A stretch of 40,552 nt of DNA from Spirochaetota bacterium (lineage in GTDB: Bacteria; Spirochaetota; Spirochaetia; Treponematales; Rectinemataceae), in NCBI GenBank assembly GCA_029778945.1, contig JAKPBN010000202.1:1-40552 (forward strand), in the 5' to 3' direction. The notes below the pieces were generated by a model that saw only the letters and a list, made by a program, of their open reading frames with translations, was not told where the DNA came from and searched no databases. Positions within the stretch are counted from its first letter, which is position 1. Each line of letters starts with the position of its first letter. Shown here piece after piece: positions 28,113-40,552 of this stretch. Made by a program: the position numbers and the translations under genes.

Positions 28113-29546
28113 TCAGGCCCCGGGCAATCCAAAATAGCCTTTTGCGTTGTCGTAGGAGATGGCCCGGACCAGGGTTCCCAGCTCCTCGAAATCCGGAGGC
28201 ACCCTGCCCTCCTCCATCCAGGTCCCGAGGAGTCCGCAGAGTATTCTCCGGAAGTACTCGTGCCTAGGAAAGGAAAGGAAGGACCTGGAGTCGGTGAGCA
28301 TGCCCACAAAGCGCCCCAGGAGGCCCAGGTTGGCCAGGGCTTTTAGCTGAAGCTCCATCCCGTCGATGTGGTCATTGAACCACCAGGCCGAGCCCAGCTG
28401 GAGCTTGCCCGCCACCTGGCCGTCCTGGAAGCAGCCCATCACCGAGGCCAGGACCTCGTAGTCATGGGCGTTGAGGGAATAGAGGACTGTCTTGGGCAGG
28501 AGGGACTCGGCCTCGAGGGCGTCCAGGAAGACCGCAAGTCCCCGGGCGGAGATGGAATCGCCCACCGCGTCATAGCCCGTGTCCGGGCCGAGCTTGGCGA
28601 ACATCCGGGAGTTCAGGTTGCGGATGGCGGCGAAATGGAGCTGCATGGTCCAGCCCCGCCGGGCGTCCATCCGCCCCACCTCGAGGAGGAGACCCGTCTT
28701 GAGGGCCGCGGCCTCGTCGGCGGCGAGGGCCTCTCCCCGGAAGGCCTTGTCAAAGGCCGCCTGGACCTGGGCCTCGGGGACGAGGCTAGCCAGGGGCTGG
28801 ACGAGGGCATGGTCCGAGAGGCGGGCGCCTAGGGTGTGGAAGAAGGCGTGGCGCTTTTCTAGGGCCGCCACGAGGCCAGCATAGGTCCTGATCTCGAGGC
28901 CCGCGGCCTGGCCGAGCTTGCCCAGGTAGGCCTTCCAGGCCAGGGGGTCCTCCACGGCCAGGGCCTTGTCCGGCCTGTAGGTGGGGGCCATCACGGGCCA
29001 GGCCGCGGCGGCCTCGCCCCCGGCCAGGCGGGCCGCGGCATAGGAGGCATGGTGCTCGAGACTGTCCGCGGGGTCGTCGGTGGTGCATACCACCTTGACC
29101 TTCATGCGGGCCAGGAGGTCCCGGGCGCCAAAGTCAGGGCCGGCTATACGGGCATTGCAGGCTTCCCAGATGGCCGGGGCCGTCCTCTCGGACAGGGCCT
29201 CGGCGATGCCAAAGTAGCGCCGGAGCTCGAGGTGGGTCCAGTGGTGCAGGGGATTGCCCACGAGGAGGGGAACGGTGCGGGCCCAGGCGTCAAAGGTCCG
29301 GCGGTCCGCGGGATGGCCGGTGATGTCCGCCTCGGGCACGCCGTTGGCCCTCATGGCCCTCCACTTGTAGTGGTCTCCCCCGAGCCAGGCCTGGGCGATG
29401 CTCGCAAAGCGGCTATTGGCCGCGATGTCGGCCGGAGGCAGGTGGCAGTGGTAGTCGATGATCGGGGCGGCCCGGGCATAGTCCTCAAAAAGCCTGATGG
29501 CGGCCTCATTGGGCAGGAGGAAATCCTCGCCGATAAAGTCCTTCAT
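28113..29546 (-). CDS. uxaC: Glucuronate isomerase (uronate isomerase)
   Basis: A 477-residue amidohydrolase-fold enzyme that converts D-glucuronate to D-fructuronate or D-galacturonate to D-tagaturonate. It starts KDFIGEDFLLPNEAAIRLFE and has the metal-proximal DYHCHLPP (His33, His35), the DPADSLEHHA block and the C-terminal RSFLSFPRHEYFRRILCGLL. Length and blocks match the family. Its ATG (29546) overlaps the uxaA stop by 4 bp. It is the last gene of the kdgK-kdgF-kduI-kduD-uxaA-uxaC operon although it catalyses an early step. A repeat element abuts its stop codon. Confidence 0.96.
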   Translation of the reverse strand: MKDFIGEDFLLPNEAAIRLFEDYARAAPIIDYHCHLPPADIAANSRFASIAQAWLGGDHYKWRAMRANGVPEADITGHPADRRTFDAWARTVPLLVGNPLHHWTHLELRRYFGIAEALSERTAPAIWEACNARIAGPDFGARDLLARMKVKVVCTTDDPADSLEHHASYAAARLAGGEAAAAWPVMAPTYRPDKALAVEDPLAWKAYLGKLGQAAGLEIRTYAGLVAALEKRHAFFHTLGARLSDHALVQPLASLVPEAQVQAAFDKAFRGEALAADEAAALKTGLLLEVGRMDARRGWTMQLHFAAIRNLNSRMFAKLGPDTGYDAVGDSISARGLAVFLDALEAESLLPKTVLYSLNAHDYEVLASVMGCFQDGQVAGKLQLGSAWWFNDHIDGMELQLKALANLGLLGRFVGMLTDSRSFLSFPRHEYFRRILCGLLGTWMEEGRVPPDFEELGTLVRAISYDNAKGYFGLPGA

Positions 29547-31072
29547 AGGGTGACTCCTTCCTTGAATATGGCTATGCCCCGGTGGCCCGCCAGCTCGGCC
29601 TTGGTCGGCCTGCCCTCGGCCACGGCGATGATGTGGCGCAACAGCTCGAGGGAGAGGGCCTCGAAGCCGGCCCCCCCCAGGATCGGTCCTGAGTCAAAGT
29701 CGATCCAGCCCGGCTTGCGGCCCGCCAGGGAGGAGTTGGACGATATCTTTATAGTTGGAACGGGAGCCCCAAAGGGGGTGCCCCGGCCGGTGGTGAACAG
29801 CACGATATGGGCCCCAGCCGCCGAAAGGGCGGTCGAGGACACAAGGTCGTTGCCGGGACCTGAGACGAGGTGGAGTCCGGCCGCCCGGGAAGCCCCCCCA
29901 TAGGGCAGGATGCCCGCTATCGGGGAGGAGCCGGCCTTGCGCACGCAGCCCAGGGACTTCTCCTCCAGGGTCGTGATGCCCCCCTCCTTGTTGCCCGGGG
30001 AGGGGTTCTCGTAGACCGGCTGGCCATGGGAGCGGTAGTAGTCCTTGAAGCCCTCGATCATCCCCAGGGCCCCGTCCAGGACCGAGGCCGCGGAGGACCG
30101 CTCATAGATCTCGGCCTCGGCCCCGAACATCTCGGGCACCTCGCTCATGAAGGCCCCGCCCCCGGCGGCCATGAGGAGGTCGCAGGTCCGGCCCACGAGG
30201 GGGTTGGCGCTGATGCCCGAAAAGCCGTCCGAGCCCCCGCACTTGAGGCCCAGGCGCAGCTCCGACAAGGGAACGGGGACCCGCCGGTCGGCCGCGAGGA
30301 CGGCCTTGAGCTCTCCAAGGGCCTTCCGCCCCTCGGCCACCTCGTCCTCGACGTCCTGGAGGGGGATAAACCTCGTGCGCGCCGGATCGAAGTCGCCCAT
30401 CGCGGCCCGGAACTCCGGCAGGCGGTTGTTCTCGCAGCCCAGGGACAGGACAAGGACGGCCCCGGCGTTGGGGTGGGTCGCGAGGCGGGCCAGGATGGCG
30501 CGGGTGGCCTCGAGGTCGCCCCCGAGCTGGGAGCAGCCCAGGGGATGGGTGAGGGCGTGGGCCTCGAGGCCATAGTCCTCCCGCGCGATCCGGGCCATCC
30601 CTTCCGCGCTGCCGTTGACGCAGCCCACGGTGGGGATGATCCAGACCTCGTTGCGGATGCCCACCCGGCCATCCCGCCCCCGGTAGGCCAGGAAGGTCGG
30701 GGCTATGGCCGAAGCGGGATCCGCCAGCAGGCGAGCCAGGCCTTCCCTTTCGGGCCAGTGGGGGCCCAGGATGGGGAGCCTGCCCGGCCCCAAGGCGGTG
30801 TCGAGGCCCGAGGACAGGTTATGGGAATGGATCCAGGCCCCGGCCTTGATGTCCGCCGCGGCACGGCCTATGGTCCGGCCGTACTTGAAAACCTCGGCCC
30901 CCTGCTCGATGTCCCGAAGGGCCAGCTTGTGGCCCCGGGGTATGGCCTCGAGGCAGACGGGCCCCGGGCCCTCGGCGCTGCCCGTGAGCCAGGCCCTGGC
31001 CCCCGCCGGGATGTCCTCGACGGCCACGGCCACGGAATCGCCCGCCCTGAGCAGGATCAGCCTGGCTTCCAT
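29543..31072 (-). CDS. uxaA: Altronate dehydratase (UxaA family)
   Basis: A 509-residue enzyme of the UxaA/GarD family, predicted to dehydrate D-altronate to 2-keto-3-deoxy-D-gluconate. It has an N-terminal SAF domain (about 1-95, including HSHNLSSGLD) and the large catalytic part opening FLAYRGRDGRVGIRNEVWI, then THPLGCSQLGGD, SLGCENN, LGLKCGGSDGFSGISANP and IAGILPYGG; the Cys residues fit an iron-dependent site. I start at ATG 31072, 10 bp after the kduD stop; the frame remains open to 31228 over kduD. It is coupled to uxaC by a 4-bp overlap. Galactarate or other sugar-acid dehydratases share this fold, but the uxaC neighbour favours altronate. Confidence 0.92.
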   Translation of the reverse strand: MEARLILLRAGDSVAVAVEDIPAGARAWLTGSAEGPGPVCLEAIPRGHKLALRDIEQGAEVFKYGRTIGRAAADIKAGAWIHSHNLSSGLDTALGPGRLPILGPHWPEREGLARLLADPASAIAPTFLAYRGRDGRVGIRNEVWIIPTVGCVNGSAEGMARIAREDYGLEAHALTHPLGCSQLGGDLEATRAILARLATHPNAGAVLVLSLGCENNRLPEFRAAMGDFDPARTRFIPLQDVEDEVAEGRKALGELKAVLAADRRVPVPLSELRLGLKCGGSDGFSGISANPLVGRTCDLLMAAGGGAFMSEVPEMFGAEAEIYERSSAASVLDGALGMIEGFKDYYRSHGQPVYENPSPGNKEGGITTLEEKSLGCVRKAGSSPIAGILPYGGASRAAGLHLVSGPGNDLVSSTALSAAGAHIVLFTTGRGTPFGAPVPTIKISSNSSLAGRKPGWIDFDSGPILGGAGFEALSLELLRHIIAVAEGRPTKAELAGHRGIAIFKEGVTL

Positions 31073-31082
31073 GGGGATGCCG

Positions 31083-31853
31083 CTACCGGGCCAGCCAGCC
31101 GCCGTCGACGGCCAGGGTAAATCCGTTGACATAGTCCGAGGCGGGGGAGGCCAGGAAGACCACGGCGCCCGCCATATCCTCCGGCGAGCCCCAGCGGCCC
31201 GCGGGGATGCGGGAGAAGATCTCCGCACTCCGCTTCTCGTCGGCCCGGAGCTGAGTCGTGTTGTCTGTCACCATGTAGCCCGGGGCTATGGCGTTGACCT
31301 GGATGCCATGCTTGGCCCATTCGTTGCAGAGGAGCATGGTGAGATTCCTGACCCCGGCCTTGGAGGCGGTATAGGAGGGGACCCTGATGCCACCCTGGAA
31401 GGAGAGGAGGGAGGCGGTGTTGATGATCTTGCCCCCCCGGCCCTGGGCGATAAAGACCTTGCCCACGGCCTGGGAGAGGAAAAAGAGGGTCTTGAGGTTG
31501 ACCCCCATGACCTCGTCCCAGTCCCGCTCGGAGAAGTCCACGGAATCGGCCCGGCGTATCGTGCCCGCGTTGTTCACGAGGATGTCGATCCGCCCGTAGG
31601 CCTCCATGGCTGCCTTGACGATGCGCGGCACGGGCTCCGTGGTGACAAGATCGGCCTCCACGTGGACATAGCGCCGGCCCAGGGCCTTGACGGCGGCCTC
31701 GGTCTCCGGGGCGGCCGGGCCCGAGGACGAGCCCAGGATGTCGGCCCCCGCCTGGGCCAGGGCTAGGGCCATGGCCTGGCCCAGGCCCCGGGAGGCCCCG
31801 GTCACGATCGCCACCTTGCCGTCCAGCCGGAATCTATCCAGTATGCCTGCCAT
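31083..31853 (-). CDS. kduD: 2-dehydro-3-deoxy-D-gluconate 5-dehydrogenase (SDR family)
   Basis: A 256-residue classical short-chain dehydrogenase. The nucleotide motif is TGASRGLG (18-25) and the catalytic set Ser148, Tyr161, Lys165 (SYTASKAG). The KduD-type stretches LVNNAGTIRRADSVDFSERD, AIAPGYMVTDNT and the terminal VDGGWLAR support the specific call. It reduces 2,5-diketo-3-deoxygluconate (DKII) to KDG with NADH in the unsaturated-uronate route, using the product of KduI, whose gene lies 8 bp upstream. Some KduD enzymes also act on other keto-sugar acids, which could matter because no tagaturonate or fructuronate reductase gene is visible. Confidence 0.92.
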   Translation of the reverse strand: MAGILDRFRLDGKVAIVTGASRGLGQAMALALAQAGADILGSSSGPAAPETEAAVKALGRRYVHVEADLVTTEPVPRIVKAAMEAYGRIDILVNNAGTIRRADSVDFSERDWDEVMGVNLKTLFFLSQAVGKVFIAQGRGGKIINTASLLSFQGGIRVPSYTASKAGVRNLTMLLCNEWAKHGIQVNAIAPGYMVTDNTTQLRADEKRSAEIFSRIPAGRWGSPEDMAGAVVFLASPASDYVNGFTLAVDGGWLAR

Positions 31854-31861
31854 GCTTCCCC

Positions 31862-32698
31862 CTAGCGGAGCTCGGAGGGCTTGATGCCGTCCATGTCGTC
31901 AAAGGTCTGGTTTTCCCCGGCCATGCCCCAGATGAAGGAGTAGGGCCCCGTGCCCACCCCGGAGTGGATGGACCAGGAGGGGGAGATCACGCACTGCTCG
32001 TTGGACATCATGAGGTGGCGGGTCTCGTCGGGCCGGCCATGGAGGTGGATCACCCGGGTCTCGGGCGCCATGTCGAAGTAGAGGTAGACCTCCATGCGCC
32101 GCTCGTGGGTGTGGGGAGGGAAGGTGTTCCAGACCGAGCCTGGCTCGAGGATCGTGAGGCCCATGCAGAGCTGGCAGGACTCGCAGACCGCGGGGTGGAC
32201 ATACTGGCGTATGGTCCGCACGTTGCACGCCTCCGGGCTGCCCAGCTTGCGGGGGTTGGCCTTGGCCTCGGGGATCAGGACCGTGGGGCAGGTCCTGTGG
32301 GCGGGGCTGGACATGAGGTAGAATTTGGCGGGCTTGGCGGGGTCGTCGCTGGTGAAGGAGATGGCCTTCGTCCCCCGGCCCACATAAAGGCCCTCGCGCT
32401 TGCCGAGGCGGTACTTGATCCCGTCGGCCTCAACCGTCCCGGCATCGCCGATGTTGATCACCCCGAGCTCCCGGCGGTCCAGGAAATTCTCCGTCCCCAG
32501 CTCCTTGCCCCCCGTGAGGGCCAAGGGAGCGACCGTGGGGCAGGCTCCGCCAAAGATGACCCGGTCCGTGTGGGAATAGGTCAGCCTCAGCTCCCCGAGC
32601 CCAAAGACCCCTTCCACAAGGAAGCGGTCTCGGAGGGTCTCGGTGTCGTAGTACATCGCGTCCTCGGGGTCCTGGCCGTAGCGTATGTCCAAGTTCAT
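31862..32698 (-). CDS. kduI: 5-dehydro-4-deoxy-D-glucuronate isomerase (DKI isomerase)
   Basis: 278 residues, the usual length. The zinc ligands sit exactly at the numbering known for the E. coli enzyme: His196, His198 and Glu203 in FPPHTHERRMEVYLYF, and His245 in PSWSIHSGVG. The N-terminal blocks RYGQDPEDAMYYDTETLRDR and YSHTDRVIFGGACP are also standard. It isomerises 4-deoxy-L-threo-5-hexosulose uronate (DKI) to 2,5-diketo-3-deoxygluconate for KduD. Gene spacing is 9 bp from kdgF and 8 bp to kduD, within one operon. Confidence 0.96.
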   Translation of the reverse strand: MNLDIRYGQDPEDAMYYDTETLRDRFLVEGVFGLGELRLTYSHTDRVIFGGACPTVAPLALTGGKELGTENFLDRRELGVINIGDAGTVEADGIKYRLGKREGLYVGRGTKAISFTSDDPAKPAKFYLMSSPAHRTCPTVLIPEAKANPRKLGSPEACNVRTIRQYVHPAVCESCQLCMGLTILEPGSVWNTFPPHTHERRMEVYLYFDMAPETRVIHLHGRPDETRHLMMSNEQCVISPSWSIHSGVGTGPYSFIWGMAGENQTFDDMDGIKPSELR

Positions 32699-32707
32699 GG
32701 CAACTCC

Positions 32708-33046
32708 TTATTTCTTGAGAAAGTCTTCCCGCTGGGGGGTAAAGACGTCGAGGAGGCGGCCCTGCTCGAGGCAGGTGACTCCGTGCCTGACGCCTCCCGC
32801 GACATAGATAGTGTCGCCCACCCCGAGGGTGTAGCGCTCAAGGCCATGGCGGAATTCGAATTTGCCCTCCAGGCAGTAGGTGGCCTGCTCATGGGGGTGC
32901 TCATGGTCGGCCCCGACCGCCCCAGGGGCAAAGAGGACCTCGACCATCATCATCCGGCCGCCTCGGGCCCGGATCTTGCGGGTGACCTTGCCGGCCTCGA
33001 TGGTCTCCAGCTCGAGCTCGCGGTCGGGAAACAGGGTCTTGTCCAT
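32708..33046 (-). CDS. kdgF: KdgF-like cupin (unsaturated uronate to DKI)
   Basis: A 112-residue single-domain cupin. The metal ligands are visible as His48, His50 and Gln54 (GADHEHPHEQATYCLEG) and His88 (AGGVRHGVTCLE). KdgF proteins speed the ring opening of 4,5-unsaturated galacturonate or mannuronate to DKI, exactly the substrate of KduI encoded next. ATG 33046 has GGAGAG upstream; the frame remains open further into kdgK but without a ribosome site. The position between kdgK and kduI supports the role; a different sugar-acid cupin remains possible. Confidence 0.85.
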   Translation of the reverse strand: MDKTLFPDRELELETIEAGKVTRKIRARGGRMMMVEVLFAPGAVGADHEHPHEQATYCLEGKFEFRHGLERYTLGVGDTIYVAGGVRHGVTCLEQGRLLDVFTPQREDFLKK

Positions 33047-33065: not shown

Positions 33066-34097
33066 CTAGCGGCTGACCCGGCCCGAGCCATCGCCCCCAA
33101 GCAGGCGCTCGACCTCGGCCCGGGTGGCCAGGTTGACGTCCCCGGGGATCGTGTGCTTGAGAGCCGAGGCGGCCACGGCGAACTCGAGGGCCCTAGCCTC
33201 GTCCTCCAGCTCAAGGAGGCCAAAGATCAGGCCCGCCGCGAAGGAATCCCCCCCGCCCACCCGGTCCACGATGTCGAGGATCTCGTACTGCCGGGAGATC
33301 CTGAAGCCCGAGGCTCCGAGCATGGCGGCCGACCAGCCATTGCGGTCCGCGGAGCGGCTTTCCCTCAGGGTTATGGCTATGACCTTAAGGCCGGGGAAAC
33401 TAGCCTTGGTCCGCTCCGCGAGCTTGCGGTAGGCATCGGCCTCGACCTCGCCCTTGCCGGGATCCGCCCCGGGAGCGGCTAGGCCCAGGCCCAGCTGGAT
33501 GTCCTCCTCGTTGGCGATGAGGACATCGGCGAGGGCCACGAGGCGGGACATCATCTGGGGCGCCTTGACCCCATAGTTCCAGAGCTTCTTGCGGTAGTTG
33601 AGGTCCACCGAGACCTTGGCTCCCGCCGCCCTGGCCGCGGCGGCCGCCTCGAGGCAGGCCTCGGCCGCCGACTGGGACAGGGCGGGGGTAATGCCCGTCA
33701 CATGGAACCAGTCGGCCCCCTGGAAGATAGCCTTCCAGTCAAAGTCCCCGGGCCCCACCTCGGCTATGGCCGAGCCCGCCCGGTCATAGACCACCTCAGA
33801 AGGCCGCATGTCCGAGCCCGTCTCCAGGAAGTAGATCCCGGCCCGGGTCCCCGAGCGCCGGACCTGGGAGACGTCGACCCCATAGGCCCTGACGGCCCGC
33901 AGGGCGGCCTCGCCCACGGGGTTGGCCGGGAGGGCCGTGACAAAAGAGGCCCGGGCGCCCAGAATGGAGAGGGAGACGGCGACATTGGCCTCCCCCCCGC
34001 CAAAGCTGGCCTCAAGGCTGGGGGACTGGAACAGCCTCTCCCTCTCGGGGGACTTGAGCCTGAGCATGATCTCGCCGAAGGTGACTACGTGTTTCAT
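33066..34097 (-). CDS. kdgK: 2-dehydro-3-deoxygluconokinase (PfkB family)
   Basis: A 343-residue ribokinase-fold enzyme that phosphorylates KDG to KDPG with ATP. It has GEIMLRLKSPERERLFQSPS at the front with the FGGGEANVAVSLSILGA substrate-binding block, and the catalytic loop VGGGDSFAAGLIFG, with Asp284 as base. The N-terminal LRL-x-P-x-x-x-R and GGxExNVA patterns are typical of KDG kinases. It is the first gene of the leftward uronate operon, with a well-formed promoter (TTGCAT-18-TAGAAT) whose predicted start is about 9 nt before ATG 34097; GAGG gives a modest ribosome site. Eda, which uses its product, is divergent across the shared control region. Confidence 0.95.
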   Translation of the reverse strand: MKHVVTFGEIMLRLKSPERERLFQSPSLEASFGGGEANVAVSLSILGARASFVTALPANPVGEAALRAVRAYGVDVSQVRRSGTRAGIYFLETGSDMRPSEVVYDRAGSAIAEVGPGDFDWKAIFQGADWFHVTGITPALSQSAAEACLEAAAAARAAGAKVSVDLNYRKKLWNYGVKAPQMMSRLVALADVLIANEEDIQLGLGLAAPGADPGKGEVEADAYRKLAERTKASFPGLKVIAITLRESRSADRNGWSAAMLGASGFRISRQYEILDIVDRVGGGDSFAAGLIFGLLELEDEARALEFAVAASALKHTIPGDVNLATRAEVERLLGGDGSGRVSR

Positions 34098-34112: not shown

Positions 34113-34142
34113 ATTCTAACCCCGCCTGGGCCGGGAATGCAA
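34113..34142 (-). promoter_or_regulatory. Promoter of the kdgK-kdgF-kduI-kduD-uxaA-uxaC operon
   Basis: On the minus strand, TTGCAT (34142-34137), 18-bp spacer and TAGAAT (34118-34113). The candidate operator at 34151-34167 lies just upstream of the -35. Confidence 0.7.
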
Positions 34143-34150
34143 TCTTAATT

Positions 34151-34167
34151 ATGGAACGGTAGTCCAT
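34151..34167. promoter_or_regulatory. Candidate uronate operator, site 1
   Basis: Inverted arms ATGGA and TCCAT with a 7-bp spacer. Read on the minus strand its core is GGACTACCGTTCC, which matches 11 of 13 bases of the perfect palindrome in the dctP leader (38354-38366). It lies between the kdgK -35 and the eda -10, so one bound protein could control both directions. Confidence 0.55.
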
Positions 34168-34174
34168 TTTCATA

Positions 34175-34180
34175 TATGAT
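34175..34180 (+). promoter_or_regulatory. Likely -10 element of eda
   Basis: TATGAT, 28 nt before ATG 34209. The 17-bp-upstream hexamer is TGGAAC, a poor -35 that lies inside the candidate operator. Confidence 0.45.
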
Positions 34181-34208
34181 GCTAGTATCCAAAGGACAGG
34201 AGGCAGAC

Positions 34209-35168
34209 ATGGACGAGGTTTCCCGGCGCATTGGGGAGATTGGCATAGTACCGGTGGTCAAGCTCGAGGACAGCGCCGCGGCCGTCCCCCTGGGCAAGGC
34301 CCTCCTCGCCGGGGGCATACCCGTGGCCGAGGTCACCTTCCGGACCTCCGCCGCCCTGGAGTCCATAGCCGCCCTCAGCCGCGGCCTGCCCGAGGTCCTT
34401 GTCGGGGCCGGGACCGTGGTCAAGGCCGAGCAGGCCCGGGCCGCGATCGAGGCCGGAGCCCGCTTTGTGGTCTGTCCCGCCTGGGTGGACGAGGTGGTCG
34501 AGCTCTGCCTGGAGAAGGGCGTCCCGGTCCTGCCCGGAGTGTCGGGCCCCGACGGGGTTGCCCGGGGAGCCGCCCTGGGCCTGGAGATCCTCAAGTTCTT
34601 TCCCGCCGAGGCCTCGGGGGGCCTTGCCATGATCGACGCCCTGGCCGGCCCCTTTGGGGGAATCAAGTTTGTGCCCACCGGCGGGATAGACGCCTCCAAT
34701 GTCGGGGCCTGGGCCAGAAAGCCCTCCATTCATGCCGTGGGCGGATCCTGGATGGTCAGGCCCGAGGCGATAGCGGCGGCGGACTGGGCGGGCATCGAAA
34801 AGACCTGCCGGGAGGCCGTCCTGGCCCTCCACGGCTTCTCCTTCGGCCACCTGGGGATCAACAGCCCCGACGAGGCCTCGGGGGCCAAGACGGCCAAGCT
34901 CCTGTCCGAGCTCTTTGGCCTGAACCTCAAGGACGGCAACTCCTCCATCCTCGCCTCCGACGCCATCGAGGTGATGAAGAAGCCCTTCCTGGGCGAAAAG
35001 GGCCACATCGGGATCCGCTGCAACAACGCCGAGCGGGCCGTGGCCAGGTTCCGGGACCTGGGCATCGGCACAAGGCCAGAGACCCAGAAGATCGAAAAGG
35101 GCCGGCTCAAGGCCGTCTACCTCGATCTAGAGATAGCCGGCTTCGCCATACACCTCATGGGGCCATGA
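34209..35168 (+). CDS. eda: KDPG/KHG aldolase with C-terminal VOC-like domain
   Basis: 319 residues. Residues 1-210 form a KDPG aldolase that splits KDPG into pyruvate and glyceraldehyde-3-phosphate: Glu41 (VAEVTFRT), GAGTVVKAEQA and the Schiff-base Lys129 (EILKFFPAE), all where the family expects them. Residues about 212-319 (FGHLGINSPDEASGAKTAKL, then GNSSILASDAIEVMKKPF, GHIGIRCNNAERAVARFRDL and FAIHLM) look like one glyoxalase/VOC-type unit, an extension also known in clostridial and spirochaetal aldolases. Its role is unclear. ATG 34209 is set by AGGAGG 5 nt upstream; the frame starts earlier at 34176. It is divergent from kdgK and ends before a strong terminator. Confidence 0.92.
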   Translation: MDEVSRRIGEIGIVPVVKLEDSAAAVPLGKALLAGGIPVAEVTFRTSAALESIAALSRGLPEVLVGAGTVVKAEQARAAIEAGARFVVCPAWVDEVVELCLEKGVPVLPGVSGPDGVARGAALGLEILKFFPAEASGGLAMIDALAGPFGGIKFVPTGGIDASNVGAWARKPSIHAVGGSWMVRPEAIAAADWAGIEKTCREAVLALHGFSFGHLGINSPDEASGAKTAKLLSELFGLNLKDGNSSILASDAIEVMKKPFLGEKGHIGIRCNNAERAVARFRDLGIGTRPETQKIEKGRLKAVYLDLEIAGFAIHLMGP

Positions 35169-35175
35169 AGAGAAT

Positions 35176-35195
35176 GTGCCACAGAGACACAGAGG
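35176..35195 (+). repeat. Octamer-type intergenic repeat, copy 4a
   Basis: GTGCCACAGAGACACAGAGG begins 7 bp after the eda stop. It is near-identical to the uninterrupted form of copy 2a and pairs, in inverted orientation, with copy 4b at 35397-35443. Confidence 0.7.
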
Positions 35196-35327
35196 GGAGA
35201 GGCAAAAATCAAGGATTGAATAGGGATCAGAGGGTTCACTGCCCCTCGCCCTTAAATCACCTGCTATCAAAGAAAAGTCAGCTCTTAGCGGAAAAACACT
35301 GAGAAAAGCGGCCCCGCAGAGAATAGG

Positions 35328-35373
35328 AATAGGGATCAGCCTTGCTAGCAAGGTCCTGATCCCTATTTTTTTT
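35328..35373 (+). terminator. Rho-independent terminator after eda
   Basis: A perfect 12-bp outer stem (35328-35339 with 35356-35367) plus a 5-bp inner stem (CCTTG/CAAGG), ending in T8. One arm, GAATAGGGATCAG, also occurs as a direct copy at 35218-35230. It is on the plus strand only and lies 160 bp after the eda stop. Confidence 0.85.
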
Positions 35374-35396
35374 CTCTAATATTCTAACGCATCTTT

Positions 35397-35443
35397 CTCT
35401 GTGTCTCTGTGCCTAACACTTTGCTAGGCCTTCGGCTCTGTGG
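35397..35443 (-). repeat. Octamer-type intergenic repeat, copy 4b (inverted), with a 22-nt insert
   Basis: Read on the minus strand: GCCACAGAG, then a 22-nt insert (35435-35414) that begins CCGAAGGCC and ends GTGTTA, then GGCACAGAGACACAGAG. The insert lies at exactly the same repeat position as the 70-nt insert of copy 2a and shares both ends with it. The copy ends 17 bp before the dctM stop. Confidence 0.7.
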
Positions 35444-35460
35444 CCCAGTCCTATATTCTC

Positions 35461-36765
35461 CTATTTCACGAACTGGGGCAGCCACATGGTGAACTGGGGC
35501 ACATAGGTGATCAGGAGGAGAACCACGATCATCGCGAGGAAGAAGGGCATCATCGCCTTGGTCCCTGCCTTTACGCTGACCTTGCCTATCGCGCAGCCCA
35601 CAAAGAGGACAGTTCCCACCGGCGGGGTTAAGAGGCCCATCCCGGCGTTGAAGATCAGCACGAGGCCGAACTGGATGGGGTCCATCCCGAGCTTCATGCA
35701 GACCGGCAGGAGGATGGGGGTGAGGATGACGATCATGGGGGCCATGTCCATCGGTCCGCCCAGGAGGAGGAGGAGGACGTTGATCATGAGGAGGATCACG
35801 ATGGGGTTCGAGGAGATCTGGAGGAAGCCCTGGGTGATCAGGTCGGGCAGGCGGAGGATGGTCATCGCGTAGCCAAAGGCCCCGGAGGCGCCGATGAGGA
35901 AGAATACCATGAGGACGGTGCGGAAGGTGCGCACCAGGACAGGCCAGAGGTGCTTGGGCTTGAGCTCCCGATAGACCACAAAGCCCAGGAAGAAGGAGTA
36001 GACGACGGCCAGGGCTCCAGCCTCGGTGGCGGTCGCGAGGCCCGTGAGGATCGAGCCCAGGATGATCACCGCGGGGGTGAAGGAGAGGAGGCCGTTGAGG
36101 ATGATCATGGGGATCTTCCGGCGCTCGGTCGCGTCTCCCCGGGGGTACTTGTTCTTGATGCTGATGACCACGCCCACGGTGCACAAGGTCACGAGCAGGA
36201 GGAGGCCCGGGACTATGCCAGCCGCGAAGAGCTTGGCGATCGAGATGCCGCCGATCACGCTCGAGGCCACGATGGAGTAGAGGACGAGGTTGTGGCTGGG
36301 CGGGACGACGACCCCCTGGATGGCCGAGGAGATCGTGAGGCCCACGGCATACTCGGCGGGATAGCCCTTTTTCTTCATGATCGGGATCATCACGGAGCCG
36401 ATGGCCGAGGTGTCCGCGACCGCCGAGCCCGAGAGGTTGCCAAAAAGCATGCAGGCCACAGAGTTGACTATGGACAGGCCGCCCGGCCAGCGTCCCACAA
36501 AGACATTGGCAAAGTCGACAATGCGGTTGGCCAGGCCACCCGCGCCCAGGAGCTGGCCGGTCATGATAAAGAAGGGGATGGCCAGGAGGGAGAAGACGTT
36601 GATCCCCTGGATGATCTGCTGGGCCACGACGACGATGGGCATCTGGAGGTACCAGAGGGTGGCCATCGAGGAGATCGCGAGCACGAGGGCGACGGGGAAC
36701 CTCAGGAGGAGGAAGACCACAAAGGTCAGGCAGAGGATCCAGATGGCGACGGTGTTACTTGGCAT
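35461..36765 (-). CDS. dctM: TRAP transporter large permease subunit DctM
   Basis: A 434-residue protein with about twelve membrane helices. Family blocks include ALVLAISSMATLWYL, LLAIPFFIMTGQLLGAGGLA, GRWPGGLSIVNSVACMLFGN, the LSGSAVADTSAIGSVMIP ion-site segment, and LLLLGGPMDMAPMIVILTPI with LTPPVGTVLFVG in the second half. It forms the sodium-coupled channel of a tripartite uptake system with DctQ and DctP. Its ATG (36765) overlaps the dctQ stop by 11 bp. Genomic position next to kdg/kdu/uxa genes suggests an uronate or unsaturated uronate oligomer as substrate. Confidence 0.95.
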   Translation of the reverse strand: MPSNTVAIWILCLTFVVFLLLRFPVALVLAISSMATLWYLQMPIVVVAQQIIQGINVFSLLAIPFFIMTGQLLGAGGLANRIVDFANVFVGRWPGGLSIVNSVACMLFGNLSGSAVADTSAIGSVMIPIMKKKGYPAEYAVGLTISSAIQGVVVPPSHNLVLYSIVASSVIGGISIAKLFAAGIVPGLLLLVTLCTVGVVISIKNKYPRGDATERRKIPMIILNGLLSFTPAVIILGSILTGLATATEAGALAVVYSFFLGFVVYRELKPKHLWPVLVRTFRTVLMVFFLIGASGAFGYAMTILRLPDLITQGFLQISSNPIVILLMINVLLLLLGGPMDMAPMIVILTPILLPVCMKLGMDPIQFGLVLIFNAGMGLLTPPVGTVLFVGCAIGKVSVKAGTKAMMPFFLAMIVVLLLITYVPQFTMWLPQFVK

Positions 36766-37279
36766 CGCGGGTGATCTCCTCGTCGATCGAATGGTAGCGG
36801 CTGATGTCGAAGCCCAGGAACTGCAGGGCCGAGTAGGCGCAGGTGAGGACTCCGGTGATCGGCATGACGATGTATTGGAGCAGGTTGGGAAGATGGGTGG
36901 CCGCGAGGAAGGACCCCCGCATCATCATCGAGAAGTCCCAGCCGTAGATGACAAGGTAGAGGCCAAAGAGGAAGGTGCACGCGTCCACGAATTTGTCCAT
37001 CCAGTGGAGGACCTTCTTGGGCAGGTTGTCGAAGAGGTCCATGCCCAGATGGAGGCTCTCCCGGAAGCCGATCGCGATGCCGATAAAGGTGAACCAGGTC
37101 AGGAAGAGCAGGGTCATCTCCTCGGACCAGGAGGGAACGAAGCTGAAGAGCTTCCGGGTCAGGACGGCCATGAACACATTGAGGATCATGAGGACGAGGA
37201 GGGTGATGCAGAAGCCATCGACGAACTTGTCGATGACGAGGAAGAACCTGGTGATGCCGCTTTTCTTCTTGTCTGGCAT
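36755..37279 (-). CDS. dctQ: TRAP transporter small permease subunit DctQ
   Basis: 174 residues with four membrane helices. The DctQ signature is clear: VLTRKLFSFVPSWSEEMTLL, then FLTWFTFIGIAIGFRESLHL. It is the small partner of DctM and links it to the binding protein. ATG 37279 follows an AAGGAG-type site. It is downstream of dctP, separated by 83 bp that hold a GC-rich palindrome, and overlaps dctM by 11 bp. Confidence 0.93.
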   Translation of the reverse strand: MPDKKKSGITRFFLVIDKFVDGFCITLLVLMILNVFMAVLTRKLFSFVPSWSEEMTLLFLTWFTFIGIAIGFRESLHLGMDLFDNLPKKVLHWMDKFVDACTFLFGLYLVIYGWDFSMMMRGSFLAATHLPNLLQYIVMPITGVLTCAYSALQFLGFDISRYHSIDEEITRDAK

Positions 37280-37311
37280 GGGGACTCCTTCAAGACTGGA
37301 CAGACGGGCCA

Positions 37312-37325
37312 GGGCCGGCCGGCCC
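37312..37325 (-). promoter_or_regulatory. GC palindrome between dctP and dctQ
   Basis: A 14-bp palindrome, GGGCCGGCCGGCCC, in the dctP-dctQ gap, with no T tract. Such hairpins after a binding-protein gene often protect its mRNA and raise its amount over the permeases; that role is inferred here. Confidence 0.45.
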
Positions 37326-37362
37326 CCGCAGCGGAGGACGGCCGGATGGCCCGCAGGGAGGA

Positions 37363-38340
37363 TTACTTCTTGGGGCGGGCGGCGTCAATGGCCTTGATGG
37401 TCTCGGCAAAGGCGGGGGACTCGGTGGCCACGAGCTGCTTGACGGCGTTCTTGAAGGGGGTCTTGTCCGGGACCGGCACGATGATCTCGCCCTCGGCGAC
37501 GATCTTCTTCGTGGCCTCGATGACATAGGCGTCCCACTTGGCCCTCTGGAAGGCGATGGTCTCCTTGGCGGCCTTGCGGAAGGCGGCCTGGTCGGTGGCG
37601 GACAGCCTGTCCCAGGCGGCCTTGTTCATGAAGAGGACCTCGGGGAGGCGGAGGTGCTCGTCGAGCATGTAGTACTTGGCGACCTGGTAATGGTTGAAGG
37701 AGATGAGGGAGGGGGCGTTGTTCTCGGCGCCGTCGATGACTCCGGTCTGGACGGCGGAGAAGACCTGGCCGGCGCCCATGGGCACGGCGGAGGCGCCCAT
37801 GGCCTCGACCATCTTGACGAGGAGGTTGTTGGGCATGACCCGGAACTTGTGCCCCTTGAGATCGGCGATGGAGTTCAGGGGATAGTTGGCGTAGAAGGAG
37901 CGGGCGCCGCCATCGTACCAGCAGAGGCCCACGAAGCCCGAGGGGGCCAGGTCGGCGAGCATCTTGTCGCCGTAGGGGCTGAGGAGGAAGTTCCACATAT
38001 GGTCGGCGGAGTCAAAGAGGTAGGGAAGGCTGAAGACGTTGAGCTGGGCATTGAAGGAGCCGAGGGCGCCGGAGGATACCCGGGCGATCTGGATGGCGCC
38101 GATCTTGACCTGCTCGATCACGACCTTCTCGTCCCCGGAGATCTGTCCGCCCGGATAGATGTCGAGCTTGAACTTGCCGTTGGTGTAGAGATTGACCAGG
38201 CGGGCGAATTCCTCGTCCGCGAGCTCGGTGGGATAGCCCTGGGGATGGATCTCCGCCAGCTTAAGGACAGTCTGGGCGACGGCGCCCGAGAGGGCGACGG
38301 CGATGACCAGGGCCGCGACCAGGATACGCTTCAGTTTCAT
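37363..38340 (-). CDS. dctP: TRAP transporter solute-binding protein DctP
   Basis: A 325-residue secreted protein: signal peptide 1-23 (ending SGAVAQ), then the DctP domain beginning VLKLAEIHPQGYPTELADEE. The ligand-contact regions are DLKGHKFRVMPNNLLVKMVE, with the Arg that binds the substrate carboxylate, and VIDGAENNAPSLISFNHYQV. It delivers a carboxylated solute, likely an uronate, to DctQM. I use ATG 38340 (MKLKRILV), 4 nt after GGAGG; the open frame to 38394 contains the operator and cannot be coding. First gene of the TRAP operon. Confidence 0.95.
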   Translation of the reverse strand: MKLKRILVAALVIAVALSGAVAQTVLKLAEIHPQGYPTELADEEFARLVNLYTNGKFKLDIYPGGQISGDEKVVIEQVKIGAIQIARVSSGALGSFNAQLNVFSLPYLFDSADHMWNFLLSPYGDKMLADLAPSGFVGLCWYDGGARSFYANYPLNSIADLKGHKFRVMPNNLLVKMVEAMGASAVPMGAGQVFSAVQTGVIDGAENNAPSLISFNHYQVAKYYMLDEHLRLPEVLFMNKAAWDRLSATDQAAFRKAAKETIAFQRAKWDAYVIEATKKIVAEGEIIVPVPDKTPFKNAVKQLVATESPAFAETIKAIDAARPKK

Positions 38341-38353
38341 GATACCTCCATTT

Positions 38354-38366
38354 GGAACACCGTTCC
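38354..38366. promoter_or_regulatory. Candidate uronate operator, site 2
   Basis: A perfect palindrome, GGAAC-ACC-GTTCC, in the dctP leader between promoter and ribosome site. It matches site 1 at 11 of 13 positions. TGGAAC-N3-GTTCCA type sites are typical of IclR-family regulators, but no such regulator gene is in the window. Confidence 0.6.
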
Positions 38367-38394
38367 GCTTTTCGCGGACGGCGACGGGAGGCAT

Positions 38395-38423
38395 CCTATA
38401 CCCGCCGGGAAAGCCGTGGTCGA
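38395..38423 (-). promoter_or_regulatory. Possible promoter of dctPQM
   Basis: On the minus strand, TCGACC (38423-38418), 17-bp spacer, TATAGG (38400-38395), about 55 nt before the dctP start. Moderate matches to both boxes; the operator lies about 30 bp downstream. Confidence 0.45.
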
Positions 38424-38465
38424 GGACTTATATGCTTTTTCCGGTACTCTGATGCGGTGCCGGCC

Positions 38466-39464
38466 CTATTGGACGGCCTTGATCCTCGCCACGATGGCCC
38501 TGATGTCCTTGGGCTGGCTCTCGTAGACCTTGGCGGCCAGGGCCTTCCAGGCCCCGGGGCTCGTGGGCTCGATAAAGGAGATGCCGCTCTTGGCCACGGT
38601 CTCCGCGGAGTCCTTCTCGTACTGCCTCCAGGCCGCCCTCTGGAATTCGACCACGTCCTCGGCGGCCTTGGCCACCAGGGCCAGGTCGGAGGCGGAAAGA
38701 ACGGCGAGGCTCCTCTGGGAGCCCACGAGCATCTCGGGGATCCGGCTATGCCGGGTTAGGGTATAGTAGCCGGCGAGCCTGTAGTGGAGGGAGGTGAGGT
38801 AGGTGGGCAGATTGTTCTCCGCCCCGTCGACCCGGCCGGTCTCCAGGGCCGAATAGGTTTCCCCAAAGGCGAGGGGGAGGGGCCGGGCCCCAAAGGCCGC
38901 CACGATGTCCGCCATGAGCTGGCTCTCCTGGACCCTCACCCGGAGGCCCGCCAGGTCTGCGGGGCTGCGGACGGGGCGCCGGGAGTTGTAGAAGGACCGG
39001 GCTCCGGCCTCGAAGAAGCAGAGGCCCACAAAGCCCGCCGACTTTACCGAGGCCAGGAGCTCCCGGCCCACATCCCCCCTGAGGACCCGCCACATGTGGG
39101 CCTCATCCTTGTAAAGGTAGGGCATCTCCAGGGCCACCAGGGGCGGCACATAGCTGGCCACGGCGGTCAGGGATACCCTGGCGATGTCTATGGCCCCGAA
39201 CTGGAGCTGCTCCAGCACGGATATCTCCTGGCCCAGGACCGAGCCGGAGAAAACCGCGATCTTGATCCTGCCCCCCGAGCGCTCGGAGACGAGGCGGGCG
39301 AACTCATAGTCGGCCATGGTCGTCGGATGGTCGTCGGGGTGGAGCTCGGCCAGGCGGAGACGGATAGGGCCGGCTCCCGGGGCAGCCTGGGCAAAAGCCG
39401 CTCCGGCGAGGCCCAGGGAAAGGGCCAGGACCACCCAAGGGAATCGACAATGTCCCAACCTCAT
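38466..39464 (-). CDS. Second DctP-like solute-binding protein, not linked to permease genes
   Basis: 332 residues: signal peptide (1-26, ending AAFAQ), then a full DctP domain similar to the neighbour (RLAELHPDDHPTTMADYEFA; DLAGLRVRVQESQLMADIV; RVDGAENNLPTYLTSLHYRL). The Arg and GAENN ligand residues are kept. Its ATG lies inside the stop of the YesN-type regulator gene (4-bp overlap), so regulator and binding protein are made together. It is followed by the promoter of the real dctPQM operon and not by its own permease. It may feed the same DctQM, or present ligand to a sensor kinase whose gene would lie upstream, outside the window. Confidence 0.9.
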   Translation of the reverse strand: MRLGHCRFPWVVLALSLGLAGAAFAQAAPGAGPIRLRLAELHPDDHPTTMADYEFARLVSERSGGRIKIAVFSGSVLGQEISVLEQLQFGAIDIARVSLTAVASYVPPLVALEMPYLYKDEAHMWRVLRGDVGRELLASVKSAGFVGLCFFEAGARSFYNSRRPVRSPADLAGLRVRVQESQLMADIVAAFGARPLPLAFGETYSALETGRVDGAENNLPTYLTSLHYRLAGYYTLTRHSRIPEMLVGSQRSLAVLSASDLALVAKAAEDVVEFQRAAWRQYEKDSAETVAKSGISFIEPTSPGAWKALAAKVYESQPKDIRAIVARIKAVQ

Positions 39465-40552
39465 TCCAAAACCTCCCCGGCCTGGCCCCGCCGGCTGCCA
39501 TCCCGATACTCGGCCGGACTGGTACCGGCAAAGCGCTTGAACACCCGGGCAAAATAGGCCGGATCCCGAAAGCCGACCAGGACGGCCACTTCCTTGACAC
39601 TGACCGAAGCCGCGGAGAGATAGGCCTTGGCCCTTTCCACCCGGATCCGCGCCAGGCAGTCCGCGAAGCCCATCCCCGTCCGCCGGGCCAGGAGGCGCGA
39701 GAGATGGGAGGGGGAAACCCCCACGAGGCCGGCCACGTTCTCCAGGGAGAGGTCCTCCGCAAGCCTTTCCTCGATCAGGGCGAGGGCCCCCTGGGCCGCC
39801 CGGTCGTGGAGGAGGCCGTCCCTCGCTAGAGCCTCCCCGGCCTGGCCCGGGGCCACGGGGGCCGCCAGGGGCGCCAGGACCACCCTCCGCCCCTTGCCGG
39901 CGACGGACACCGCCGAGGCCGCGGCCCGGGCCAGGTTGGCCGGCCCCGGCAGGCCCGAGCCCTGGGGGCCGGCGGCAAAGGCGGCCCCGGCCAGGACCGA
40001 GAGCCCTAGATCGTTGCGCAAGGCCTCCAGGACGGACTCGGCGCAGCCCAGAACGAGGTCGCGCAACGCGAGCTCGTCCAGGGCCTGGCCGGACCTGGCC
40101 AGGACGAGGCAGAGGGCCCGGTCCTGGCCGGCCCCGGCCAGGGCCTCGAGGCCCCGGAGGGCAAAGCAGCGCTCAAGGGCAGCCGCCCCCGCCCTGAGGG
40201 AAGCCGTGCCAGGGCCCTCGGCCGGGGCATCGGCCCAGCGCAGGGCCAGGGCCGCCACGACGGGACCCCGGTCCCCGGAGAGGGCGCCATAGCGCCCCAG
40301 GCCCTCCTCGGGAACCCTGGACTGGGCCAGCTCGGTCCTCAGGGACTCCGCAAGCCACTGGGCCAGGCCGGCGGCGGCGCACGAGGCCGCGGCGCCGCCC
40401 TGGCCCGGCCCTCGCCGGCCCAGGGCCCGCTCCAGGGCCGCCAGGACCGCGGGCTCCGAGGCGGGCTTGAGGAGCAAGTCCTCGACCCTGAGCCTCAGGG
40501 CCGAGCGGGCATCGTCACAGCGCTCGTGGGCGGTGAGGAAGACCAGGGGAAG
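39461..40552 (-). CDS. YesN/AraC-type response regulator, N-terminus beyond the window
   Basis: The frame is open to the right edge, giving 363 visible residues. The first about 45 are the end of a receiver domain (LPLVFLTAHERCDD, then LRVEDLLLKPAS, with the conserved Lys-Pro). A long Ala/Leu/Gly-rich middle region follows, then a C-terminal AraC double helix-turn-helix: LSLENVAGLVGVSPSHLSRL and SVKEVAVLVGFRDPAYFARV, ending GTSPAEYRDGS. The apparent start at 40477 is an internal TTG. The phosphoacceptor Asp is not in view. Coupled to the second DctP gene by a 4-bp overlap, it probably controls uronate uptake or catabolism together with a histidine kinase encoded further right. Confidence 0.9.
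   Translation of the reverse strand, partial: LPLVFLTAHERCDDARSALRLRVEDLLLKPASEPAVLAALERALGRRGPGQGGAAASCAAAGLAQWLAESLRTELAQSRVPEEGLGRYGALSGDRGPVVAALALRWADAPAEGPGTASLRAGAAALERCFALRGLEALAGAGQDRALCLVLARSGQALDELALRDLVLGCAESVLEALRNDLGLSVLAGAAFAAGPQGSGLPGPANLARAAASAVSVAGKGRRVVLAPLAAPVAPGQAGEALARDGLLHDRAAQGALALIEERLAEDLSLENVAGLVGVSPSHLSRLLARRTGMGFADCLARIRVERAKAYLSAASVSVKEVAVLVGFRDPAYFARVFKRFAGTSPAEYRDGSRRGQAGEVLE

Follow-up and report, generated by a model that had tools for sequence, protein, structure and literature searches.

The window analysed here is a stretch of 40,552 bp from a Spirochaetota bacterium of the family Rectinemataceae; its right-hand part contains genes for uronate catabolism, a TRAP transporter and part of a two-component system. 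Below, G000 designates the genome of the window itself and G001 a sister species of the same genus. Promoter positions are predictions based on sequence and conservation. The features are as follows:

28113–29546, − strand: uxaC, uronate isomerase (NCBIfam NF002794, 568 bits, cut-off 387)
29543–31072, − strand: uxaA, altronate/galactarate dehydratase family (Pfam GD_AH domains)
31083–31853, − strand: kduD (NCBIfam TIGR01832, 390 bits, cut-off 339)
31862–32698, − strand: kduI (NCBIfam NF002091, 417 bits, cut-off 250)
32708–33046, − strand: small cupin-like protein (ORF kept in relatives' clusters)
33066–34097, − strand: kdgK, PfkB-family 2-keto-3-deoxygluconate kinase (Pfam PF00294)
34113–34142, − strand: putative kdgK promoter, TTGCAT-N18-TAGAAT (from sequence; similar arrangement readable in G001)
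34149–34169, no strand assigned: predicted operator 1, TTATGGAACGGTAGTCCATTT, kdgK/eda divergent region (matrix rank 1; conserved at eda of relatives)
34162–34188, + strand: putative eda promoter, −35 inside operator 1, −10 TAGTAT at 34183–34188
34209–35168, + strand: eda, KDPG aldolase (Pfam PF01081, residues 7–198)
35461–36765, − strand: dctM, TRAP large membrane subunit (Pfam PF06808)
36755–37279, − strand: dctQ, TRAP small membrane subunit (Pfam PF04290)
37363–38340, − strand: dctP, TRAP solute-binding protein (Pfam PF03480)
38350–38370, no strand assigned: predicted operator 2, ATTTGGAACACCGTTCCGCTT, dctP leader (matrix rank 2; same place in G001)
38395–38423, − strand: putative dctP promoter, TCGACC-N17-TATAGG, upstream of operator 2 (from sequence; TAGGAT-like block kept in a five-genome alignment)
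38432–38454, − strand: conserved block CATCAGARTACCGGRAAWAGCAT, upstream of the dctP promoter (alignment of five dctP upstream regions)
38466–39464, − strand: dctP2, second TRAP-type binding protein, beside the two-component genes (Pfam PF03480)
39461–40552, − strand: AraC-type response regulator, truncated where the contig ends (HTH_18; the receiver domain is on contig C240)

At its C-terminus, Eda is extended by about 110 aa, for which Pfam gives no match, and the Eda proteins of many relatives share this extension.

The initial annotation had described two related palindromes, at dctP and between kdgK and eda, with no further two-armed copy in the window, and had attributed them to one repressor. 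The sequences and coordinates proved correct: GGAACACCGTTCC (+ strand, 38354–38366) is a perfect palindrome with arms of 5 + 5 nt and a 3-nt centre, located within operator 2, which is centred 20 nt upstream of the dctP start codon; GGACTACCGTTCC, on the − strand of 34153–34165, is identical to it at 11 of 13 positions and is extended by ATGGA/TCCAT arms (34151–34167). As strings alone, the two are statistically ordinary. The 13-mer occurs in the window at chance level (13 matches with up to three mismatches; 13.2 expected), and its symmetric form shows no excess (6 matches; 12.7 expected). Since these counts are unremarkable, a decision required comparison with relatives, and the significance of the palindromes comes from their position and conservation.

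We located eda in 119 relatives and found the same 21-bp palindrome upstream of it in nine relatives, which span the order from the genus of the window, through its family, to three further families. These operators include TTTTGGAACACTAGTCCATTT (G001), TTTTGGAACCTCGTTCCATTT (G016), ATTTGGAACGATGGTCCATTT (G002), TATTGAAACCTTGTTCCATTT (G087) and TTTTGAAACACTGTTTCATTT (G116), as well as those of four more relatives; sites of the kdgK/eda type are also present in many named spirochaete genomes. A matrix trained only on the eda operators of the nine relatives, with the window left out, ranked operator 1 first (25.2 bits) and operator 2 second (19.5 bits) in the window, while the third match reached 6.9 bits, in line with the reported absence of further two-armed copies; the best match in 60 simulated windows scored 17.0 bits. 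The same matrix gave a match of 24.5 bits directly before a gene for a GH28 polygalacturonase in another relative (G046; L059:4901–4921), which suggests that the regulon of relatives includes pectin genes. When the wider TRAP family was searched, the dctP operator was present in G000 and G001 only; it was absent in G003, G007 and G016, although their DctP proteins are 81–85% identical. The conservation that had been expected of both sites was thus found across four families for the kdgK/eda site and only within the genus for the dctP site. By this comparison, the predicted kdgK/eda operator is old and the predicted dctP operator is restricted to the genus.

Whole-genome scanning with IUPAC patterns indicated that the motif is restricted to a small set of genes in G000 (4.07 Mb). 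The bare pattern TGGAACNNNGTTCCA occurred at background level (49 places with up to two mismatches vs. 70 in the control), so A/T flanks are needed in the pattern. With these flanks, WWWTGGAACNNNGTTCCAWWW matched exactly four places at up to two mismatches, whereas the reversed control pattern matched one; across four genomes together, the forward and reversed patterns matched 14 and 2 places, respectively. Two of the four places are the operators in the window, and the other two are on a 5.9-kb contig (C240), one before uxaB (tagaturonate reductase) and one directly before a gene of the IclR family. A scan of this kind had been proposed as a check of the common-repressor reading, and all four matches indeed fall at uronate genes, uronate-type TRAP uptake genes or the IclR-family gene. 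In G001, the same four sites are found inside one 12-kb stretch with the contiguous order uxaC-uxaA-kduD-kduI-cupin-kdgK, operator, eda, dctMQP with operator, dctP2, response regulator, histidine kinase, operator, uxaB, and iclR with operator. Two further matches were not counted as support, one located inside a gene of G001 (C86:2008) and one adjoining an uncharacterised gene and a beta-helix protein in G002 (C24:22114). Site centres at −20, −50 and −62 from the gene starts are within the usual IclR zone (−20 to −80). The predicted regulon also takes in uxaB and the regulator gene, on the neighbouring contig outside the window. C240 overlaps the right end of the window by 434 bp at 95.6% DNA identity (window 40119–40552; L050 5425–5858), which fits adjoining contigs with strain differences in a draft assembly; as the identity is only 95.6%, the iclR/uxaB contig may come from a co-binned strain.

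The IclR-family gene (G000:C240:1305–2087) is located next to uxaB and encodes a protein with a clear IclR effector domain (PF01614, 192.7 bits; cut-off 24). Its best NCBIfam model is KdgR (NF011671), at 234.7 bits, as compared to 134 bits on the IclR equivalog model; this score is below the KdgR equivalog cut-off of 275, so that the protein lies outside KdgR as strictly curated, although it probably works like KdgR. Other spirochaete and Propionivibrio members scored 217–259 bits on the KdgR model. The best PDB sequence match is E. coli KdgR, and the spirochaete protein is about 42% identical to KdgR of Providencia. Among 30 eda loci, the eda operator was present in all 10 genomes with this IclR protein (at least 50% identity) and in none of the 20 without it (these genomes are related and do not represent independent trials); leave-one-out operator scores were 21–27 bits with the protein and 7.3 bits or less without it. 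The 80 IclR loci of named genomes contained 67 sites, as compared to 1 in simulated copies, and many of the 67 adjoin eda/kdgK, uxaA/uxaB, kduI-kduD or TRAP genes; in many spirochaetes, the regulator gene itself is inside the uronate cluster. No site was found near the other two clear IclR-family genes of G000 (C255 and C307). The assignment to an IclR-type regulator made in the initial annotation is borne out and can be narrowed to a KdgR-like protein by NCBIfam, PDB and motif evidence. Matrix ranks, genome-wide restriction and co-occurrence likewise support one regulator, presumably a repressor, over the kdgK, eda and dctP units; both palindromes are, very probably, operators of a single KdgR-type IclR-family repressor encoded on C240.

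The positions of the sites relative to predicted promoters are as initially described, i.e., upstream of the kdgK −35, over the eda −35 and downstream of the dctP promoter. About 6 bp lie between operator 1 and the putative kdgK −35 downstream of it (TTGCAT, 34142–34137; −10 TAGAAT, 34118–34113), and the 3′ half of the operator covers the putative eda −35. The eda −10 is weak in the window, with TATGAT at 34175–34180 as an alternative, and the distance from the operator to the −10 is 13 nt in the window and the sister species and 15–16 nt in most other relatives. Operator 2 is 3′ of the putative dctP promoter, between the start site and the ribosome-binding site; at uxaB, the operator follows the likely −10, and at iclR, it immediately precedes the start codon. 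This geometry fits repression, with either sign possible at kdgK, where a site upstream of the −35 is a less usual place for repression. The IclR protein might bind all sites and yet activate, or have a dual role, at kdgK, since the family includes activators and dual regulators (PMC8222616); however, the eda, dctP, uxaB and iclR sites are on or 3′ of core promoter elements and KdgR relatives repress, and we regard this variant, which does not exclude the repressor reading, as unlikely.

DctP links the predicted regulon to uptake. Its best PDB matches are 4xfe, 4ovr, 4x8r and 4n8y (E values of 4e-74 to 3e-69), among which 4N8Y and 4X8R are galacturonate-bound and glucuronate-bound TRAP binding proteins, respectively (PMC11668362). 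DctP thus resembles uronate-bound TRAP proteins, as do the hexuronate TRAP transporters UxuPQM, so uronate uptake is likely, with a hexuronate as the likely substrate of dctPQM; unlike UxuPQM, the system described here is linked to dctP2 and a histidine kinase/response regulator pair. A TRAP system of G002, more distantly related, and one in a Holophagaceae genome also carry sites, and TRAP genes seem to have come under the KdgR-like regulator more than once. The dctP palindrome could instead be a chance or decayed match, with a true KdgR-type operator only at kdgK/eda and uptake not co-regulated with breakdown, as its absence at dctP of G003, G007 and G016 and the chance-level 13-mer counts would allow. 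This is improbable, given that operator 2 scored higher than the best simulated window, is kept at the same place in G001 and is one of only two places in the genome with no or one mismatch to TGGAACNNNGTTCCA, and that other TRAP genes carry the site.

The order dctP-dctP2-response regulator-histidine kinase is kept in G001, G003, G007 and G016. In five genomes, dctP2 is beside the histidine kinase and AraC-type response regulator genes (window 38466–40552; L050 3669–5856); DctP2 may be the outside sensor of this two-component system. The CATCAGARTACCGGRAAWAGCAT block is kept in G000, G001, G003, G007 and G016, both with and without the operator, and is a candidate site of the adjacent response regulator. 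This response regulator, or a UxuR of the GntR or LacI type, might in principle bind the palindromes in place of the IclR protein, as other bacteria control their uronate genes by regulators of the GntR or LacI families (PMC5507952, PMC3750489). Such a regulator is highly improbable: the motif tracks the IclR protein, matches the known KdgR box and occurs in front of the IclR gene itself, the other IclR loci of G000 are without it, and the candidate block of the response regulator is a different sequence. Control of translation by an RNA hairpin at the dctP palindrome is still less credible; although the G000 leader RNA (38325–38392) folds better than shuffles (z −3.1) with its ribosome-binding site paired, the best fold leaves the palindrome arms unpaired with each other, and the special fold is not kept in G001 (z −0.2), where the DNA motif is.

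A KdgR-like IclR-family repressor is also consistent with known systems. The window sites fit IclR group 2, in the same register as the group-2 consensus TGRAACAN1-2TGTTYCA (PMC8222616) and the Dickeya KdgR box AAATGAAACAnTGTTTCATTT (PMC5559549); relatives carry TTTTGAAACACTGTTTCATTT and similar boxes, of which the window sites are GC-shifted versions. As in the gammaproteobacterial KdgR regulon (Dickeya, Yersinia, E. coli), an IclR-family regulator and a 21-bp box in the same register are found, and the gene content (kdgK, eda, kduI, kduD and uxa genes) is that of a KdgR regulon; eda, kdgK and kduD are controlled there too (PMC6958661). By contrast, the sites usually have GGAAC/GTTCC arms in the high-GC family of the window, uxaB and the TRAP transporter join the regulon, the KdgM porin and KdgT were not seen among the targets, and autoregulatory sites are present in several genomes. 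In Providencia, where the protein is KdgR by the NCBIfam cut-off, the site is between kdgR and kdgK. The predicted KdgR of Thermotoga maritima is likewise of the IclR family and tied to uronate use through uxaC (PMC3750489), but its regulon lacks kdgK and kdgA, whereas here these KDG genes carry the best conserved site. The E. coli IclR operator TGGAAATNATTTCCA shares the half-site type TGGAA/TTCCA (PMC8222616) but serves different target genes.

Regulators 64–68% identical to the spirochaete protein were found in Rhodocyclaceae and Holophagaceae, with the operator and kduI-kduD clusters (L150–L153, L156–L159). In a quick-search tree of 105 regulators, the Rhodocyclaceae-type and Holophagaceae proteins nest inside the spirochaete family of the window (SH-aLRT 96–98), which suggests that the regulator was transferred between phyla together with its operators. 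A wider proposal, which in our judgement could equally prove right or wrong, is that uronate use in Spirochaetales is generally regulated by a KdgR-like clade separate from the KdgR of enterobacteria, which has captured TRAP transporters more than once and has spread, together with its operators, to Rhodocyclaceae and Holophagaceae; dctPQM in the genus of the window would be doubly controlled, by KdgR-like repression through an internal metabolite and by probable activation through a two-component system in which a TRAP-type binding protein senses the outside.

Without uronate, the repressor would occupy operator 1, over the eda −35 and close upstream of the kdgK −35, as well as operator 2 in the dctPQM leader, early in the transcript, the uxaB promoter and its own promoter. 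Once a hexuronate enters and the pathway makes 2-keto-3-deoxygluconate, the repressor would probably be released, so that uptake (dctPQM) and breakdown (uxaC-uxaB-uxaA, kduI-kduD, kdgK and eda) would be induced together; this effector is carried over by analogy from KdgR (PMC5559549). The mechanism is already known, and what is new is the group of hosts, the link to TRAP uptake and the broader distribution; the presence of a KdgR-type switch across spirochaetes seems new as well, and spirochaetes are not mentioned in a broad survey of IclR-family motifs (0 occurrences in PMC8222616). Uronate use in spirochaetes is now assigned a regulator together with its operator and target genes, a TRAP transporter has gained a predicted substrate (hexuronate), and the matrix is ready for use in annotating the pectin and uronate genes of uncultured spirochaetes.
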